From positions 1-32,853 of the forward strand of contig JANQJT010000163.1 in assembly GCA_028281485.1 (NCBI GenBank): a stretch of 32,853 nt of DNA. Reading direction: 5' to 3'. Below the pieces are notes generated by a model, which did not search any database, was not told the origin of the DNA, and saw only the letters and a program-made list of their open reading frames with translations. Numbering within the stretch: the first letter of the stretch is position 1; each line of letters begins with the position of its first letter. Shown in pieces: positions 4,796 through 17,796 of this stretch. Source of the DNA: Phycisphaeraceae bacterium. GTDB lineage: Bacteria > Planctomycetota > Phycisphaerae > Phycisphaerales > Zrk34. Position numbers and translations under genes: made by a program.

Positions 4796-4831
4796 AAAAA
4801 AGCGGAGGGTCGCGTGTCCGCAACGCTCCGC
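4796..4831 (-). terminator. Rho-independent terminator-like hairpin downstream of ppk
   Basis: On minus strand: GCGGAG (4831-4826) ... CTCCGC (4807-4802) followed by TTTTTT (4801-4796). Confidence 0.6.
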
Positions 4832-4994
4832 ACACCGATCATCTTTCACCCCGAACTGCTCGTTCTCCCGTTCGGGTCAATGCGGTCGGGGGCGCATCTG
4901 ATCTCACAGCTCGCGTGGGTGGATTATGCCCGGCGGGGGTTAGCCGCGGGTTATCCGTGTCTTACTTCTCGATGTGGATTGTGTTAGGGGCGGA

Positions 4995-7151
<2,157 letters not shown>

Positions 7152-8414: not shown

Positions 8415-8486
8415 TTATACAACATTTAAAGCTATTGGTGGCATGGGTTAGCGCAATTCTCACTGAGGGTTAATCGCGTGCTAATT
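8415..8486. promoter_or_regulatory. Candidate degenerate Pho-box-like array between CHAD gene and phoB
   Basis: Hexamers at exact 11-bp register: TTATAC 8415, TTAAAG 8426, (8437 no match), TTAGCG 8448, CTCACT 8459, TTAATC 8470, CTAATT 8481. Confidence 0.3.
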
Positions 8487-8545
8487 GGGTATGGGTATCA
8501 ATGAATCTCCTAACGGCGGGAGTAGTTGGAGTGAGACAGCAGTTC

Positions 8546-9283
8546 ATGACACAGCCTAGCCAAGAAACACTTGAAGGCCGTTACCGCGCGCTGGTCGTCG
8601 AGGACGAGCCGGACCAGCGCGAACTGCTCCGGTACAACTTGGCCCGTAATGGTTTTGAAGTGTACTGTGCGGAGACGGGCAGTCGGGCGCTGGCGATTCT
8701 TGAAGAGCAGACGCCGGATGTGATCGTGTTGGACCTGATGCTGCCGGGCATGGACGGCCTGCAGGTCTGCCAGAGCATTCGCAGCCGAACCGAGACTTCT
8801 GCAATACCGATCGTCATGTTGACGGCTCGCGGTGAGGATACGGACATCGTTGCGGGTCTGGAGTTGGGTGCGGACGATTACATCACCAAGCCGTACAGCC
8901 CGCGCGTGTTGCTGGCCCGCGTGAAGGCGGTGATGCGTTCGCGTTCGAAGAGCGATGGAAACGGTCAGCCGGCCGGCGATGAACCGATCATCCGCCACGG
9001 CGACCTGGTGATCCGCCCCGAGCGATTCGAGGTGTCGATCGACAGCAAGCCGATCAAGCTCAGCGGCACGGAGTTCCGCATGCTGGTGCTGTTGGCGGGC
9101 AAGCCGGGTCGGGTGTTTACCCGGGCCCAGATCATCGCCGCGGTGCACGGCAACAACTGTGCGGTGACCGACCGCTCGGTGGACGTGCACATCTTCTGGC
9201 TGCGTCAGAAGCTCGGATCGGCCGGTCAGCTCGTTGAGGCCGTGCGTGGGGTCGGATATCGGTTCCGTGATGCGGAATCTTAA
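8546..9283 (+). CDS. phoB: Phosphate regulon response regulator PhoB (OmpR/PhoB family)
   Basis: Receiver domain (VVEDEPDQRELL...DVIVLDLMLPGMDGLQV...GADDYITKPYSPRVLLARV) and winged helix (LSGTEFRMLVLLAGKPGRVFTRAQIIAAVHG...DRSVDVHIFWLRQKLG...VRGVGYRF). Adjacent to pst genes. Alternative start 8501. Confidence 0.9.
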   Translation: MTQPSQETLEGRYRALVVEDEPDQRELLRYNLARNGFEVYCAETGSRALAILEEQTPDVIVLDLMLPGMDGLQVCQSIRSRTETSAIPIVMLTARGEDTDIVAGLELGADDYITKPYSPRVLLARVKAVMRSRSKSDGNGQPAGDEPIIRHGDLVIRPERFEVSIDSKPIKLSGTEFRMLVLLAGKPGRVFTRAQIIAAVHGNNCAVTDRSVDVHIFWLRQKLGSAGQLVEAVRGVGYRFRDAES

Positions 9284-9348
9284 GGTGTTGAATCGATCCG
9301 GATTTCGTAAATCGTTGTTTTGAATTGCGATACGCCAGAATCAAAATG

Positions 9349-9398
9349 TTAGGTTTTGATTAACACAAATCTTACATTTCTATGACCTGCCATTAACA
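9349..9398 (+). promoter_or_regulatory. Candidate Pho-box array upstream of pstS
   Basis: TTAGGT(9349)-N5-TTAACA(9360)-N5-CTTACA(9371)-N5-ATGACC(9382)-N5-TTAACA(9393): five hexamers, each exactly 11 bp apart. Confidence 0.6.
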
Positions 9399-9480
9399 GG
9401 CAGCCCCTAGAGTCTGTGCGAAGAATCGATGAAACGAGCGGCTCTTGCGGGCCGTCAATTGAGCCATGAAAGGAATGGAC

Positions 9481-10464
9481 ATGTCGAAGAAGCGCTGGTT
9501 TGCTCAGGGGATTGCGGCTCTCGCGGTGGTTGCGACCGTCTCGTATGCCGCGGTGACGCTGGATAAAGATCTGCCCGATTACGTCCCGACCTCGGGTGTG
9601 AGCGGTAACATCAAGAGTGTCGGTTCGGACACGATGAATAACCTGATGACCCTGTGGGCTGAGGGTTTCCGCAAGATGTATCCGAACGTGATGGTCGAGA
9701 TCGAAGGCAAGGGCTCGAGCACCGCGCCCAAGGCCCTGATCGCGGGTACGGCGACGTTCGGCCCGATGAGCCGGGCGATGAAGAGCAGCGAGCAGGACGA
9801 TTTCGAGGACGCGTTCGGCTACAAGGCGACGAATGTGCGGACCTCGATCGATATGCTCGCGGTGTTCGTCCACAAGGACAACCCCATCGCCGAGCGGGGC
9901 CTGACGCTTCAGCAGCTCGACTGCATCTTCTCCAAGACCCGCAAGTCCGGCGGTGAGGATATCGTCACCTGGGGCGACCTGGGTCTGACCGGTGATTGGG
10001 TCGACAAGCCGATCTCGCTGTACGGGCGCAACTCGGCATCCGGCACGTATGGCTACTACAAGAAGGTGGCGCTGCTGGGGGGCGATTACAAGGATTCGGT
10101 CAAGGAGCAGCCCGGTTCTTCGGCTGTGGTGCAGGGCATCGCGACCGATAAGTACGCGATCGGTTACTCGGGGATCGGCTACAAGACCGCCGACGTGCGG
10201 GTCTTGCCCCTGGCGAAGTCTGCCGACAGCCCCTACTTTGCTCCGACGGCGGATAACGCGGCCGAGTACCCCTTGGCTCGCTTCCTTTACCTGTACGTCA
10301 ATTACAAGCCCGGCAGTTCGCTCGATCCCCTGCGGGCCGAGTTCCTGAAGTACATCTTCAGCAAGTCGGGCCAGAGCGACGTGATCAAGGACGGCTACAT
10401 CCCCGTCACGGCCACGATCGCCGCCGAGGAGCTCGGCAAGTTTGGGATCGAGATCGAGGAGTAA
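9481..10464 (+). CDS. pstS: Phosphate ABC transporter substrate-binding protein PstS
   Basis: Signal peptide MSKKRWFAQGIAALAVVATVSYA; IKSVGSDTMNNLMTLWAEGFRKMYPNVMVEIEGKGSSTAPKALIAGTATFGPMSRAMK; GRNSASGTYGYYKK. ATG at 9481 has AAAGGA SD; ORF track starts at 9466. Confidence 0.93.
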   Translation: MSKKRWFAQGIAALAVVATVSYAAVTLDKDLPDYVPTSGVSGNIKSVGSDTMNNLMTLWAEGFRKMYPNVMVEIEGKGSSTAPKALIAGTATFGPMSRAMKSSEQDDFEDAFGYKATNVRTSIDMLAVFVHKDNPIAERGLTLQQLDCIFSKTRKSGGEDIVTWGDLGLTGDWVDKPISLYGRNSASGTYGYYKKVALLGGDYKDSVKEQPGSSAVVQGIATDKYAIGYSGIGYKTADVRVLPLAKSADSPYFAPTADNAAEYPLARFLYLYVNYKPGSSLDPLRAEFLKYIFSKSGQSDVIKDGYIPVTATIAAEELGKFGIEIEE

Positions 10465-10621: not shown

Positions 10622-13309
10622 ATGCAGGATAGCCATGAGTCATTTTCCAAGCGGCGGCGCAAGCTGCAGACGCCGTGGCGCGTGAAGGCCGCCGACAGTG
10701 CGTCGCGCGCGATCATCACGATCGGTGGTGTCGGCACGATCATCGCCATGTCGCTGTTGGCTGTGATGCTGTTCTGGGAGGTGTTCCCGCTGTTTAAGCC
10801 CGCGGTCGCCACGCGCATCGAAGGGCACGCGCTTCCGCTGGACCAGCGCCAGCCAATCCACATGCGCGCCGACGAGTACCGCACGCTGTCTTGGGTGGTT
10901 TGCGATGACGGCACGCTACAGGTCTATCGCCTTGGCGATGGCGCGGTGATCGAGGACCGCGTGTTGTCGGGCGGTGAGATGCCCACGGCGATGAGCTTCC
11001 CCTTGGCCGGCGAGTCAAGGAATCGCGGCGCGAAGACGGAGCACCGCACGGTGATCGCCAGCGGGTACGCCAACGGCGAGGTGCAGTTCTTTAACGTTGA
11101 TATCATCACGACGTACCTCGATGACGAGACGGTGCCCGAGGCGTTGCACGACCTGGAAGAGGGCGTGGCTGCGCCGTATGAAGACGGGGTGGTGCAACGC
11201 ACGCCGACCGGCCAGTTCCGCCACCAGGCGGTGGTTGTCAGCGAGCGGGGAGAGCGTCGGGCGCTGCTGGACGGGCCTGTCGTTGCGATGGATCACGTGA
11301 TCGATGGCAGCAAGGTGACGATGATCGCAGCGGGCGGGCGTGGTGACACGCAGCCGCAGTTGAAGATGGCCACGGGCCGGCTGAGCGGCGGCGCGTTCAC
11401 GGTTGTCAACAACCTGCCCTACACGCTCCGCGGCGGGCAGCACGCCTCGCACGTCAAGCTTTCGGGTATCAGGGATCAGGTCTTCGCGATCTGGCCGGAC
11501 GGCCTGACAACGCGACTGGCCACCTCCGATCCGCCAAACGCGTACGTCGCTGAGGAACTGGACGTCGCACCGCTGGGCGGCGAGGTGGTGACGAGCGTGC
11601 AATGGTTGTTGGGCCAGGCGACGCTGTTGGTGGGCACCAGCGAGGGCCGACTGAACGGCTACTTCACCATTCGCCCCGCTGACTACGATGTACAGGATCA
11701 GTACCCCGACAACCGGGACGGCGTGGTGTTCTTACGGGCCAAGCCGCTGGCGCCGCCGAGCGGTTCGCCGATCACCTCACTCGACAGTTCCACTCGCACG
11801 CGTCTGATCGTTTCCGGTGACCAGGCGGGAATCGTGCGCAGCTACTACGTGACCAGTGAGCTGGAGCTGATCGCGCTGGACACCGAGCAGCGCAGCAGCG
11901 TCGGCGCGGTGGCCATCAGCCCCAAGGAAGACGCGATCTACGCGACAGACAACAGTCAGCTGTTCCAGTGGTCGTTCGACAAGATGCACCCCGAAGCCAC
12001 GATGGAGACGCTGTTCCGTCCGGTCTGGTACGAGAACTACGCGGTCAAGCTGTACATGTGGCAGAGCACCGGCGGCAGCGACGACTACGAGCCGAAGTAC
12101 AGCCTCGTGCCGCTGGTGTTTGGCACGATCAAGGCGACGTTTTACGGGATGCTGTTCGGGGCGCCGCTGGCGCTGATGGCGGCGATCTTCACCAGCGAGT
12201 TCCTGCCGCCGCGCTGGAAGGCGCGCATCAAGCCCACGATCGAACTGATGGCGTCGTTGCCGTCGGTGGTGCTGGGCTTCCTGGCGGCGCTGGTGTTCGC
12301 ACCGGTGCTGGAGGGCATCCTGCCGGCGGTGCTGTCGATGATGTTGGTCGTGCCGCTGACGTTCATGCTCGGCGCGTACCTGTGGCAATTGCTGCCGTTC
12401 CGGTTCACCGTGATCGCGAGGCCGTACCGATTCATGGTTCACCTGGCGTTGCTGCCAGTGGGTGTGGTCGCGGCACTATTGGCTGGGCCGACGATCGAGC
12501 GGTTGCTGTTTGCCGGCAACATCAAGCTGTGGTTGAACGGCTCGTTGAGCAGCACCAAGCCGTACGGCAGCCCGGTCGGTGGGTGGTTGTTCCTGCTGAT
12601 GCCGGTGGCGGTGTTGGTGGTGGGGCTGGTGATGACGACGATCGTCAACCCGCGGATGCGCACGGTGACGCCGCATCTGACACGTCGCAAGGCGGCGATG
12701 CTGGACCTGGGCAAGTTTGTCGTGGGGGCGGTCGTTGCGTTGAGCCTGGCGTTGGGGGTCGGTTTTGTTCTCTCGCAGATGGGCGTCGACTCGCGTGCGC
12801 CGTGGACGGCGGGCGGTTTTGACCTGGCGATCCTGGGTCAGTTTGATCAGCGTAACGCGCTGCTGATCGGTTGGGTGTTGGGCTTCGCGGTCATCCCGAT
12901 CATCTACACCATCTCCGAGGACGCGCTGTCATCGGTGCCTGAGCACCTGCGCAGCGGCTCGCTGGGAAGCGGCGCCACGCCGTGGCAGACGGCGGTGCGC
13001 ATCGTGGTGCCCACGGCGATGAGCGGTCTGTTTTCGGCGATGATGATCGGCCTGGGCCGCGCCGTCGGCGAGACGATGATCGTGTTGATGGCGTTCGGCA
13101 ACACGCCATTGTTGGACCTGAACATGCTCAGCGGCAGTCGCACACTGGCGAGTAACATCGCCGTGGAACTGCCCGAGGCCGTGCCGGGCACGACGCACTA
13201 CCGCGTGCTGTTCCTCTGCGGCTTCGTGCTGTTTGTCATGACGTTCTTCCTGAACACCGTGGCGGAGCTGGTCCGCATGCGATTCCGTAAGAGGGCGGTC
13301 TCCTTATGA
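10622..13309 (+). CDS. pstC: Phosphate ABC transporter permease PstC, large form with periplasmic beta-propeller-like insert
   Basis: 895 aa; N-terminal TM, about 435 aa soluble region, then permease core with EDALSSVPEHLRSGSLGSGATPWQTAVRIVVPTAMSGLFSAMMIGLGRAVGETMIVLMA. Confidence 0.88.
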   Translation: MQDSHESFSKRRRKLQTPWRVKAADSASRAIITIGGVGTIIAMSLLAVMLFWEVFPLFKPAVATRIEGHALPLDQRQPIHMRADEYRTLSWVVCDDGTLQVYRLGDGAVIEDRVLSGGEMPTAMSFPLAGESRNRGAKTEHRTVIASGYANGEVQFFNVDIITTYLDDETVPEALHDLEEGVAAPYEDGVVQRTPTGQFRHQAVVVSERGERRALLDGPVVAMDHVIDGSKVTMIAAGGRGDTQPQLKMATGRLSGGAFTVVNNLPYTLRGGQHASHVKLSGIRDQVFAIWPDGLTTRLATSDPPNAYVAEELDVAPLGGEVVTSVQWLLGQATLLVGTSEGRLNGYFTIRPADYDVQDQYPDNRDGVVFLRAKPLAPPSGSPITSLDSSTRTRLIVSGDQAGIVRSYYVTSELELIALDTEQRSSVGAVAISPKEDAIYATDNSQLFQWSFDKMHPEATMETLFRPVWYENYAVKLYMWQSTGGSDDYEPKYSLVPLVFGTIKATFYGMLFGAPLALMAAIFTSEFLPPRWKARIKPTIELMASLPSVVLGFLAALVFAPVLEGILPAVLSMMLVVPLTFMLGAYLWQLLPFRFTVIARPYRFMVHLALLPVGVVAALLAGPTIERLLFAGNIKLWLNGSLSSTKPYGSPVGGWLFLLMPVAVLVVGLVMTTIVNPRMRTVTPHLTRRKAAMLDLGKFVVGAVVALSLALGVGFVLSQMGVDSRAPWTAGGFDLAILGQFDQRNALLIGWVLGFAVIPIIYTISEDALSSVPEHLRSGSLGSGATPWQTAVRIVVPTAMSGLFSAMMIGLGRAVGETMIVLMAFGNTPLLDLNMLSGSRTLASNIAVELPEAVPGTTHYRVLFLCGFVLFVMTFFLNTVAELVRMRFRKRAVSL

Positions 13310-16101
13310 GTCAGGTGCGGCTCGATCAACCCGGCGATTCCGGTTCGCGGCCCAGGCGTCGCGGGGGCGGCACGCGTACGGCGTTGGTGGCGCACGGCGA
13401 GCCCATGGTGTGGCTGACCGGGGGGTGTCTGGCGATCAGCGTGGTGATGATCCTGGGGCTGCTGTGGCTGATCCTGATGCAGGGTGCCGGTACGTTCGTG
13501 CCTCAGCCGATCGTGAAGGTCACCACGGTCGACGGCCAGGTGATCATGGGCGAGCCCACGCGGCACGAGAGCTACGAGCTGGTCGAGGACATGGTCGATA
13601 CGCTGCCGACGGCGCTGCGTGACAAGGCCGAGCCCTTGCTTATCGAGAGCTCGCCGGCCGGTCAGCGCTACGGCTACGACACGCGCACGCTCTACCGCAC
13701 CGGCAACTTCCGATTGAACAACACGCGCTTCACCTGGGTGCCCGAGTTCGCGGTGGTCGAAACCGAGAAGCCCGAGTGGGCCATGGTGGTCGAGCGGCAG
13801 GAGTGGGGCCGGTTCTACGGCATCCCTCTGGCTTTTGAAAGAAAACACGAGCGGCCCGTCTCCGAAGAGGAGGAGTTGCTGGCCGATCTGAATCAGCTTC
13901 TCTACATCGGTCAGTTCACCGCTCCCGCCGAGCAGCGCGAACAGATCAAGCGGTTGTTGGAGGGCGCGACGAAGGAATTGGATGATTTGCGCGGCGCTGC
14001 GATCAAAGAGTTTGTTGCCGGGTTCGATGCGCAAGAAGGGGTCTCATTCGGCGCCGAGCTGGACAGCCGCAAGATCGTGTCGCTGACCGACCTGCGACCG
14101 GGTGACAACGTCGTGCGGATCGTCGAGGTGTATGAGGGCTCGCAAGTTGCTTACGAACGGTTCCGGCAGGTCCACGGCCGGGTCTTGGATCAACTGCGTG
14201 AGCGAAGCCGACTCAAGCGTCACGATCTCGGCGAGATCAACGAGCACCAGGAGCACTCGCGTAAGGCGCTGCGTGATGTTGAATTGGTCTACGGTAAGAA
14301 GCTGTTAGATCGTGAGAAGCAGGATCGCCTCGAAGCCGAGGGCGAAGAGGCGTCCGGTGAGTTCCTGGAGTTTCGCGAGGCGCGCCTGCGACAGGTGCCG
14401 CTGGTGGAGCGGGCCGAGTCGATGCTGGTGCAGCAGAACGTGCTGAACGCGATCGAACTGGAGAACGCGGATCGTGCGGCGCTGGTCGAACGCGTCGCGG
14501 AGCGATACGGCCGGGACGCACCGATGACACGGGCGGCGCGGAATAGCGATGAAGCCATGGTTGGCCGCGCCGAGCAGACCGCCGAGAAGGCCGAGGCCGC
14601 CATCGCGACGGTGCGTCAGCGATTGGATCGTGAATACGCCCGGTACGCCCGGCGCATCGGTCCGGTCGATGAGCCACTCAACGCCGCGATCGACGATTAC
14701 ATCCAGACCAAGATCCACACCAACGAGCAGACGCGCGAGATCAACCACCGCATCGAAGAACTGAACGAATCCAGCGAGCGCTACGCGATCCGCTTCGTGA
14801 CCGGCGACAGCCAGTTCGCCACGGTCAATGTCGCGGAGATCGTCCGGGCCTATCCGGCCAACCGGCTGAGCTTCGGCGACAAGGCCGGCGTCTACCTTTC
14901 TCGCTGGGGCGAGTTCCTTACGGCCGACCCGCGCGAGGCCAACCAGGAGGGCGGCGTCAAGCAGCAGATCATCGGCACCGTGCTCATGACGATCATCATG
15001 GCCATCGCCGTGGTGCCTTTCGGTGTGATGGCGGCGCTGTATCTGCGAGAGTACGCCCAAGCGGGCCCGATCGTCTCGATCATCCGCATCTCGATCAACA
15101 ACCTGGCCGGTGTGCCGAGCATCGTGTTCGGCATGTTCGGCTACGCGCTGTTCTGCCGAATCGTCGGCGGCTACATCGACCGCGGCCCCACCGTCGTGCT
15201 GCCCTCGAAGACGTGGTTCGTCATGCTGGTGGTGTTCGGGCTGCTGATCCTGATCGGTGGCGTGGCGGCGCTGCTCAACCGTGGCGGCACGAAGACGCGC
15301 GGCAGCGGTGTGGCGCCCGCGATCAATGTGTTGCTTTGCGTGCTCATGTTCGGCCTGGTGGTCGTGCTCAACGTGTTGTTCGGGTTGAATCCGTACATCG
15401 TGCTGGGCACGGTTCTGCTCTATGTCGGCTGCTACGTGGTGTTCGGCCGCGTACAAGACGTTCGTTCGACGTTCGAGCGGACGGTGTACACGGCGGGGCT
15501 GTCGACGTGCGTGTCGGCGGCGGGCGTGTTGCTCTTGCTGATCGCCGTGACCCCGTTCTTCGACGGCTTCTTCACGGCAAGCTATGCCGACAACAACCCG
15601 ACGTTCGGCAAGGGGGCGCTGATCTGGGCGTCGCTGACGCTGGCGCTGCTGACGCTGCCGGTGGTGATCGTGGCGACGGAAGAGGCGCTCAGCGCCGTGC
15701 CGAACTCGATGCGTGAGGGCTCTTACGCCTGCGGGGCGGGCAAGTGGCAGACGATCAAGCGGATTGTCCTGCCCCGTGCGATGCCGGGTATCATGACGGG
15801 TATGATTCTCGCGATGGCGCGTGGCGCCGGTGAGGTGGCGCCGCTGATGCTGGTGGGCGCGGTGAAGATCGCGCCCGAGCTGCCGTTCGATACCGCTCCG
15901 CCGTTCGGTGTGAACCGCAGCTTCCTGCACCTGGGTTTCCACATTTACGACCTCGGCTTCCAGAGCCCCGACGCCGAGGCCGCCAAGCCGATGGTTTACA
16001 CGACAACGCTGCTGTTGATTTTTATTGTCGCCGTTCTGAATATCGCCTCGATCTGGTTGAGAACACGACTGCGTCGGAAGTTCGTCGCGTCGGCCTTCTA
16101 A
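13306..16101 (+). CDS. pstA: Phosphate ABC transporter permease PstA, large form with coiled-coil-rich insert
   Basis: 931 aa; N-terminal TM, long charged soluble region, then permease core with INNLAGVPSIVFGMFGYALF and ATEEALSAVPNSMREGSYACGAGKWQTIKRIVLPRAMPGIMTGMILAMARGAGEVAPLML. Overlaps pstC stop (ATGA). Confidence 0.88.
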   Translation: MSQVRLDQPGDSGSRPRRRGGGTRTALVAHGEPMVWLTGGCLAISVVMILGLLWLILMQGAGTFVPQPIVKVTTVDGQVIMGEPTRHESYELVEDMVDTLPTALRDKAEPLLIESSPAGQRYGYDTRTLYRTGNFRLNNTRFTWVPEFAVVETEKPEWAMVVERQEWGRFYGIPLAFERKHERPVSEEEELLADLNQLLYIGQFTAPAEQREQIKRLLEGATKELDDLRGAAIKEFVAGFDAQEGVSFGAELDSRKIVSLTDLRPGDNVVRIVEVYEGSQVAYERFRQVHGRVLDQLRERSRLKRHDLGEINEHQEHSRKALRDVELVYGKKLLDREKQDRLEAEGEEASGEFLEFREARLRQVPLVERAESMLVQQNVLNAIELENADRAALVERVAERYGRDAPMTRAARNSDEAMVGRAEQTAEKAEAAIATVRQRLDREYARYARRIGPVDEPLNAAIDDYIQTKIHTNEQTREINHRIEELNESSERYAIRFVTGDSQFATVNVAEIVRAYPANRLSFGDKAGVYLSRWGEFLTADPREANQEGGVKQQIIGTVLMTIIMAIAVVPFGVMAALYLREYAQAGPIVSIIRISINNLAGVPSIVFGMFGYALFCRIVGGYIDRGPTVVLPSKTWFVMLVVFGLLILIGGVAALLNRGGTKTRGSGVAPAINVLLCVLMFGLVVVLNVLFGLNPYIVLGTVLLYVGCYVVFGRVQDVRSTFERTVYTAGLSTCVSAAGVLLLLIAVTPFFDGFFTASYADNNPTFGKGALIWASLTLALLTLPVVIVATEEALSAVPNSMREGSYACGAGKWQTIKRIVLPRAMPGIMTGMILAMARGAGEVAPLMLVGAVKIAPELPFDTAPPFGVNRSFLHLGFHIYDLGFQSPDAEAAKPMVYTTTLLLIFIVAVLNIASIWLRTRLRRKFVASAF

Positions 16102-16118: not shown

Positions 16119-17054
16119 ATGAAATCCATACACGACACGACATTGATCGACCCTAATACCACGCCACCGCTCCCGCCGACGGGCGTCGAGGTGCAGATCG
16201 ATGACAACGCGGCTTCGGCCAACACGGGCGGTCAACTGCTGGACGCGATCAATCGCGGCGAACAGATCCACAGCGAGGTGCACGACGCGATCCAGCACGA
16301 AGAGATCGTGTTGGACGTGGTCGACTTCAACCTCTGGTACGGTGCGAAACAGGCGTTGTACGACAACAACTTCAAGGTGCCGCGCGGCAAGGTCACGTCG
16401 CTGATCGGCCCGTCGGGCTGCGGCAAGAGCACGCTGCTGCGTTCGGTCAACCGCATCAACGACCTGATCGACATCGTGCGCATCAAGGGCGACATGCTGC
16501 TCAACGGCGACTCGATCTACGACCCCGGCGTGGACGTGATCGAACTCCGCAAGCGCATGGGCATGGTGTTCCAGAAGCCCAACCCGTTCCCCATGAGCAT
16601 CTACGAGAACGTGGTGTACCCGCTCCGTATCGACGGCGAGCGCAGCAAGAGCGTGCTGGATGACGTGTGTGAGAACTCGCTGAAGGGCGCGGCGCTGTGG
16701 GACGAGGTCAGCGATCGGCTGCACGACAACGCGCTGGGCATGTCCGGCGGTCAGCAGCAGCGTCTCTGCATCGCGCGCGCCATCGCCGCGGAGCCCGAGG
16801 TCCTGCTGATGGACGAGCCCTGCAGCGCGCTGGACCCGATCGCCACCGGCAAGGTGGAAGACCTGATCCAGGAGCTCAAGGGCGATTACTCGATCCTGAT
16901 CGTGACCCACAACATGCAGCAGGCGTCGCGTGCCAGCGACTTCACCGCGTTCATGTATCTCGGCCGTCTTATCGAGTACGGTCCGACGATCGACGTGTTT
17001 ACCAATCCCCACCTGAAAGAAACCGAAGATTACATCACCGGTCGTTTCGGTTAA
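16119..17054 (+). CDS. pstB: Phosphate ABC transporter ATP-binding protein PstB
   Basis: Walker [10 protein letters not shown], signature [16 protein letters not shown], Walker [17 protein letters not shown]; PstB-like [38 protein letters not shown]. Confidence 0.96.
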
Positions 17055-17118: not shown

Positions 17119-17796
17119 ATGTCGATTCACCTTGAAAGACAGTTCGACCGGCTCAAGAAGCTGATCCTCTCGCAGGGCGCGCGGGTAGAGGAGGCTTTGG
17201 TCGAGGCGATCATGGCGGTGCAGAACTACGACGAAGCGTTGGCGCGTCGCGTGATCGAAAACGACAAGCAGATCGATCTGATGGAGATCGAGGTGGAGGA
17301 AGAGTGCCTGCACACGCTGGCGCTGCACCAGCCGGTGGCGTTCGACCTGCGATACGTTGTGGCGGTGTTGAAGATCAACAACGACCTGGAACGCATCGCC
17401 GACCTGGCGTCGAACATCTGTCAGCAGGCGATCTATCTGTCGCAGTCCGGCGGGTTGGCCGAAATCCCATTCGACATGCGGACGATGTCGGTGAAGGTGT
17501 CCGACATGATGAAGCTGGCGTTGGACGCGCTGGTCAACGTTGATCCGGAGACCGCCCAGAGCGTGCGAGATATGGACGATGAGGTCGACGCGATCCACCA
17601 GGACATGTACGGCAGCATCACGGCGGCGATCCGGGAAAACCCGCACCTCATCGAGCAACTCATTCACTACATGAACATCTCGCGTCAGCTCGAACGCATC
17701 GGCGACCACGCCTGCAACATCGCCGAGGACGTGTTGTACATGGCGCGGGGCGACATCTCTCGCCATCAAGGTCCGGTTCGCAGCCCTAAGACCTGA
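17119..17796 (+). CDS. phoU: Phosphate signalling/transport accessory protein PhoU
   Basis: FDRLKKLILSQGARVEEALVEAI...RRVIENDKQIDLMEIEVEEECLHTLALHQPVAFDLRYVVAVLKINNDLERIADLASNI...NISRQLERIGDHACNIAEDVLYMARG. Confidence 0.95.
   Translation: MSIHLERQFDRLKKLILSQGARVEEALVEAIMAVQNYDEALARRVIENDKQIDLMEIEVEEECLHTLALHQPVAFDLRYVVAVLKINNDLERIADLASNICQQAIYLSQSGGLAEIPFDMRTMSVKVSDMMKLALDALVNVDPETAQSVRDMDDEVDAIHQDMYGSITAAIRENPHLIEQLIHYMNISRQLERIGDHACNIAEDVLYMARGDISRHQGPVRSPKT

Follow-up and report, generated by a model that had tools for sequence, protein, structure and literature searches.

The five evenly spaced hexamers between a phoB-like gene and a phosphate transport operon raise the question of whether they form the operator of this operon and, if so, which regulator would act on it. 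Direct reading of the window, i.e., the whole stretch of 32,853 nucleotides that was analyzed, confirmed the sequence, position, and exact 11-bp spacing given in an earlier note: on the forward strand, between phoB1 (stop at 9283) and pstS, the array (9349-9398) consists of TTAGGT (9349-9354), TTAACA (9360-9365), CTTACA (9371-9376), ATGACC (9382-9387), and TTAACA (9393-9398), all direct repeats in the same orientation. Four of these units (9360-9398) form the core, while the outermost TTAGGT is weaker; it corresponds to TTAAGT in the array of a porin O/P-phoB2-phoR operon, where the TTTGA spacer is shared, and to CCAATT in the sister species G001. Judged from sequence, we consider it highly probable (about 0.9) that pstSCAB-phoU has this array as its Pho operator-promoter and that further copies of the operator also control phoB1 and porin O/P-phoB2-phoR.

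The operon is well defined by its protein families. The gene for the phosphate-binding protein PstS (9466-10464; TIGR02136 above cut-off, PF12849) starts at 9466 or slightly downstream and is followed on the same strand by a long pstC-type permease gene (10622-13309; TIGR02138 with 194.6 bits, cut-off 196.45), a long pstA permease gene (13306-16101; TIGR00974 above cut-off), the ATPase gene pstB (16119-17054; TIGR00972 above cut-off), and phoU (17119-17796; TIGR02135 above cut-off). The products PstC (895 aa) and PstA (931 aa) are of unusual length, with large additional regions ahead of the permease domain. Divergent genes on the reverse strand encode a CHAD protein and the polyphosphate kinase Ppk1, and a search against Rfam gave no match in the window.

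A promoter scan of the pstS upstream region found no sigma-70 -35/-10 pair. The region does contain a putative -10 element of the form TANNNT, TAGAGT (9408-9413, forward strand), located 9 nt past the last half-site and without a -35 consensus. This geometry recurs in other arrays: among 32 arrays chosen on their hexamers alone, TANNNT begins exactly 9 nt past the final unit in 16 and at 20 nt (9 + 11) in 3, with a total of one for the other offsets between 0 and 19.

The array region is richer in AT than the surrounding coding sequence, and two of its units, ATGACC and TTAGGT, match poorly, as would be expected if TTA-like words had fallen into an 11-bp period by chance in AT-rich intergenic DNA. 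We therefore list this explanation, but it fares badly. With a hexamer position weight matrix (PWM) trained on other genera only, and four units scored at 11-bp phase on both strands, none of 3,000 dinucleotide shuffles of the region 9284-9480 reached the score of the pstS array, which is also the top four-unit array within the 32.8-kb window; the same holds for the arrays upstream of phoB1 (0 of 3,000 shuffles) and of the porin gene on contig C261 (0 of 2,000). Since the sites in the PWM were drawn from relatives of the same gene, an independent spacing test with a fixed word was added (YTAACA, one mismatch permitted in TAACA; 54 orthologous pstS upstream regions; 200 shuffle rounds). YTAACA-like hexamers occurred 11 bp apart 22 times compared to 0.40 expected (shuffle maximum 3), 22 bp apart 9 times (0.50 expected), and 33 bp apart 4 times (0.40 expected); a smaller excess was seen at distance 20 (6 vs. 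0.49). Tandem Repeats Finder detected no repeat at the array, as expected for units so diverged. The shuffle comparison that the earlier note had proposed thus came out in favor of the array, and together with an 11-bp signal common to several genera, its fixed distance to the -10 element, and the genome-wide restriction described below, it led us to reject chance periodicity, which we regard as vanishingly improbable.

Conservation before orthologous pstS genes was looked for and found, supporting the earlier proposal of a local Pho operator with a lineage-specific consensus (YTMACR here vs. CTGTCAT in Escherichia coli). Arrays of YTMACR type precede pstS in 6 of 7 family members with a PstS match (G000, which is this genome, G001, G002, G003, G006, and G007), and at the threshold used none was found before pstS of G005 (family f1). 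They also occur in other families; overall, about 20 of the 54 upstream regions pass the array threshold, and about 34 have no array of this type at that threshold (families f2 and f3, as well as G005). In f2 and f3, the 11-bp signal is borne by TTCAC- and TGAAC-type words instead, and many PhoB recognition helices there read S-S-R-T-V-D-V-H versus T-D-R-S-V-D-V-Q, which is suggestive of covariation between half-site words and recognition helix. In the sister species G001, whose PstS is 73% identical, the surrounding sequence has diverged while the hexamers remain recognizable before both pstS and phoB1. The closest named records based on PstS include ones labelled Phycisphaeraceae and Phycisphaerales, and YTMACR is the predicted Pho-operator consensus of the phycisphaeral lineage of the source genome. 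An eight-unit 11-bp array with two imperfect units was observed before pstS of an unclassified MAG (L034, 2616-2714); it ends 9 nt before CATACT and has a second four-unit array downstream.

The source genome is itself a MAG (2.64 Mb, 344 contigs, 85.9% complete), and a search of all of it for 4 x YTNAY with at most one mismatch returned three places only, compared to none for the reversed-pattern control. The genome-wide scan recommended in the earlier note thus confined four-unit arrays to pstS, phoB1, and, on another contig (C261), porin O/P-phoB2-phoR, i.e., to positions before Pho genes, where they abut a putative -10 element without a -35. The array upstream of phoB1 (8448-8486, forward strand) comprises TTAGCG (8448), CTCACT (8459), TTAATC (8470), and CTAATT (8481), is conserved in G001, and is followed 9 nt after its last half-site by the -10-like TATCAA (8496-8501; TATCAC in G001), which is without the final T of TANNNT. 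Because an ATG at 8501 falls in this putative -10, the ATG at 8546 is preferred as the start of phoB1 (8546-9283, forward strand), which may be autoregulated through its upstream array. The earlier note had missed this second array within the window as well as the -10 spacing (9 nt vs. 11). In the porin O/P-phoB2-phoR operon (L115, 2686-6476), the array starts at 2686 and reads TTAAGT, TTAACA, TTTATT, TTAACC, and TTAACA, then 9 nt and TAATAT; 24 of its 30 hexamer bases are identical to those of the pstS array, and the spacers TTTGA and GCCA are common to both. An array was also looked for upstream of phoB2 in G001, where none was found.

Across 24 genomes, 3 x YTMAYR gave 8 matches (2 for the reversed-pattern control), 5 of which precede phoB (G001 and G057), pstS (G033), or porin O/P (G033 and G042). 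The matches in G067, as well as one of those in G033 (L079), were left uncounted, since no recognised Pho gene adjoins them. A three-half-site match in the source genome (CTAACC, CTAACC, CTAACA; C16, 9415) was likewise not counted, as it has no TANNNT at +9, the nearest sizeable forward ORF is about 300-500 nt away, and the control pattern is equally frequent. In G001, a four-unit array with TACCCT at +9 lies directly before a gene for an OlsF-like bifunctional aminolipid synthase (L168, on contig C45 of G001, 719-2607), which is in line with phosphate-saving lipid remodelling. OlsF-type synthases were rejected as a general target, because the array is clear in G001 only; the copy in the source genome is interrupted by a contig end.

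Furthermore, a weaker array of six partly degenerate units was found behind ppk1 on the reverse strand (4998-4938; 4923-4998 including CATAAT). Its units CTAATC (4998), CTAACA (4987), CACATC (4976), GTAAGA (4965), ATAACC (4954), and CTAACC (4943) are followed after 9 nt by CATAAT (4928-4923), and about 90 nt past the latter, a strong hairpin with TTTTTT (4831-4796) would end a candidate small RNA (4796-4922, reverse strand, no ORF; fold z -2.4; expected transcript about 100-120 nt). The arrangement recurs in G001, in the same order and likewise on the minus strand (L129, 3371-3150): the units TTAACC, TTAACA ... CTAATA are followed after 9 nt by CACAAT and further on by a hairpin with 86% identity over 36 nt. 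This stretch is possibly a Pho-controlled small RNA, but since its array statistic is weaker (6 of 2,000 shuffles as high; 2 of 2,000 for the G001 counterpart) and the arrangement of array and terminator was seen in two genomes only, it stays a lead. A match to the candidate in G002 was rejected, as no array accompanies it and it resembles coding sequence.

Among known Pho boxes, that of E. coli shares the 11-bp direct repeats replacing the -35, with four half-sites there and four core units here. E. coli pstS has CTGTCA, CTGTCA, CTTACA, and CTGTCA, followed after 11 nt by TATTTT, which we take to be its -10, and its CTTACA is identical to one unit of the planctomycete array. While the earlier note correctly saw four or five half-sites, its contrast with an expected two does not hold, given that four are also present in E. 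coli. The planctomycete consensus is nonetheless YTMACR rather than CTGTCAT-N4, TGTCA being absent from all five units, and at 9 nt the array stands two bases closer to the -10. The Bacillus subtilis PhoP box, TT(A/C/T)A(C/T)A, has in common TTAACA, which occurs twice in the planctomycete array, and several tandem half-sites; 2 of the 5 units fit it exactly, the rest starting with C or A or differing inside, and the planctomycete spacing is exact, with C often at the first and often at the third base. The core region of the Bacillus PhoP box ends near -22, which would equal 9 nt to the -10.

Pho boxes have also been placed 10 bp upstream of the -10 (PMC1906773), and the cyanobacterial SphR box consists of YTTAAYYW repeats with a 3-bp linker (PMC1906773, PMC13226834). 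The latter shares the TTAAC core, the 11-bp phase (8 + 3), and the placement of two to four units across or upstream of the -35, whereas planctomycete hexamers commonly carry A in position six and C in position three, and those in the window, reading ATTAACAC and ATTAACAG, do not conform to YTTAAYYW. Bacteroidota-type pstS upstream regions (L038-L041 and L046) carry TTAACA/TTAATA-like 11-bp arrays of up to six units but belong to distant PstS proteins (26-29% identity). Pho regulation in Planctomycetota appears to be undescribed in the papers searched, among which the only one combining "Pho box" with "Planctomycetes" was a review of Agrobacterium membrane lipids.

The regulator itself is less straightforward. 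A PhoB-family gene does lie upstream of the array, as had been claimed, but its product PhoB1, an OmpR/PhoB-family response regulator, is a divergent paralogue with no kinase gene next to it and was found only in the genus of the source genome (g1); its best family is the PhoB equivalog TIGR02154, with 240 bits, below the curated cut-off of 296.2. The source genome has two PhoBs, the other being PhoB2 on C261, where its gene is followed by that of a PAS-HisKA-HATPase kinase, so that a PhoB-PhoR pair is encoded. In the tree, PhoB2 falls together with the PhoB of most relatives, which have just one (moderate fork support, 81/90), and PhoB1 and its counterpart in G001 stand apart on a long branch (100/100). 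The best solved relative of the DNA-binding domain is E. coli PhoB (entry 3t72, a PhoB-sigma4-DNA complex). PhoB1, with the recognition helix H-I-F-W-L-R-Q-K, has F, W, and Q at R200, R201, and K204 of E. coli PhoB and A for T217, and adjacency alone therefore does not prove that it binds the array. Its receiver aspartate and partner residues are intact by eye, and thus PhoB1 may still be phosphorylated.

An operator worked by the adjacent PhoB1, whose DNA preference would have changed along with the operon while PhoB2 served other genes, would agree with the location of phoB1 directly upstream, the array in its own promoter, and its distinctive helix. We nevertheless think this unlikely: the array before pstS and its spacing are the same in genera that lack PhoB1, which makes the PhoR-linked PhoB2 the likelier binder, and the PhoB2 operon bears the best-matching array of the genome. 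A circuit of both proteins in this genus, in which the canonical PhoB2-PhoR pair and an orphan PhoB1 whose recognition helix has been remodelled would each be under the control of the YTMACR operator, and in which this operator would also drive the small RNA just behind ppk1, is a tentative possibility. OmpR-family sites are in general direct repeats with a phase close to 11 bp, and a first look gave 23 candidate relatives of PhoB1 in the source genome, so that the array could in principle serve another member of this family unrelated to phosphate. This we hold to be very unlikely, as the array places in the genome are restricted to pstS, phoB1, and porin O/P-phoB2-phoR, and the sites in relatives precede phoB, pstS, and porin O/P.

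For the preferred Pho operator-promoter, we propose that when cells starve for phosphate, the phosphorylated form of a PhoB-family regulator would occupy the 11-bp repeats, its dimers arranged head to tail and in register along a single face of the DNA. This regulator is most likely PhoB2, the partner of PhoR, though PhoB1 may bind too. With the innermost unit ending 9 nt before TAGAGT, the bound protein would substitute for the absent -35 and recruit sigma-70 RNA polymerase. The same operator at phoB1 and porin O/P-phoB2-phoR would create positive feedback.

The consensus, phase, and promoter spacing would make the Pho regulon of Phycisphaerales genomes readable from their sequence. Moreover, these arrays may offer a natural experiment on how a PhoB array comes to stand at a given distance from the -10 (9 vs. 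11 nt), and on the way in which recognition helices change along with half-site sequences.
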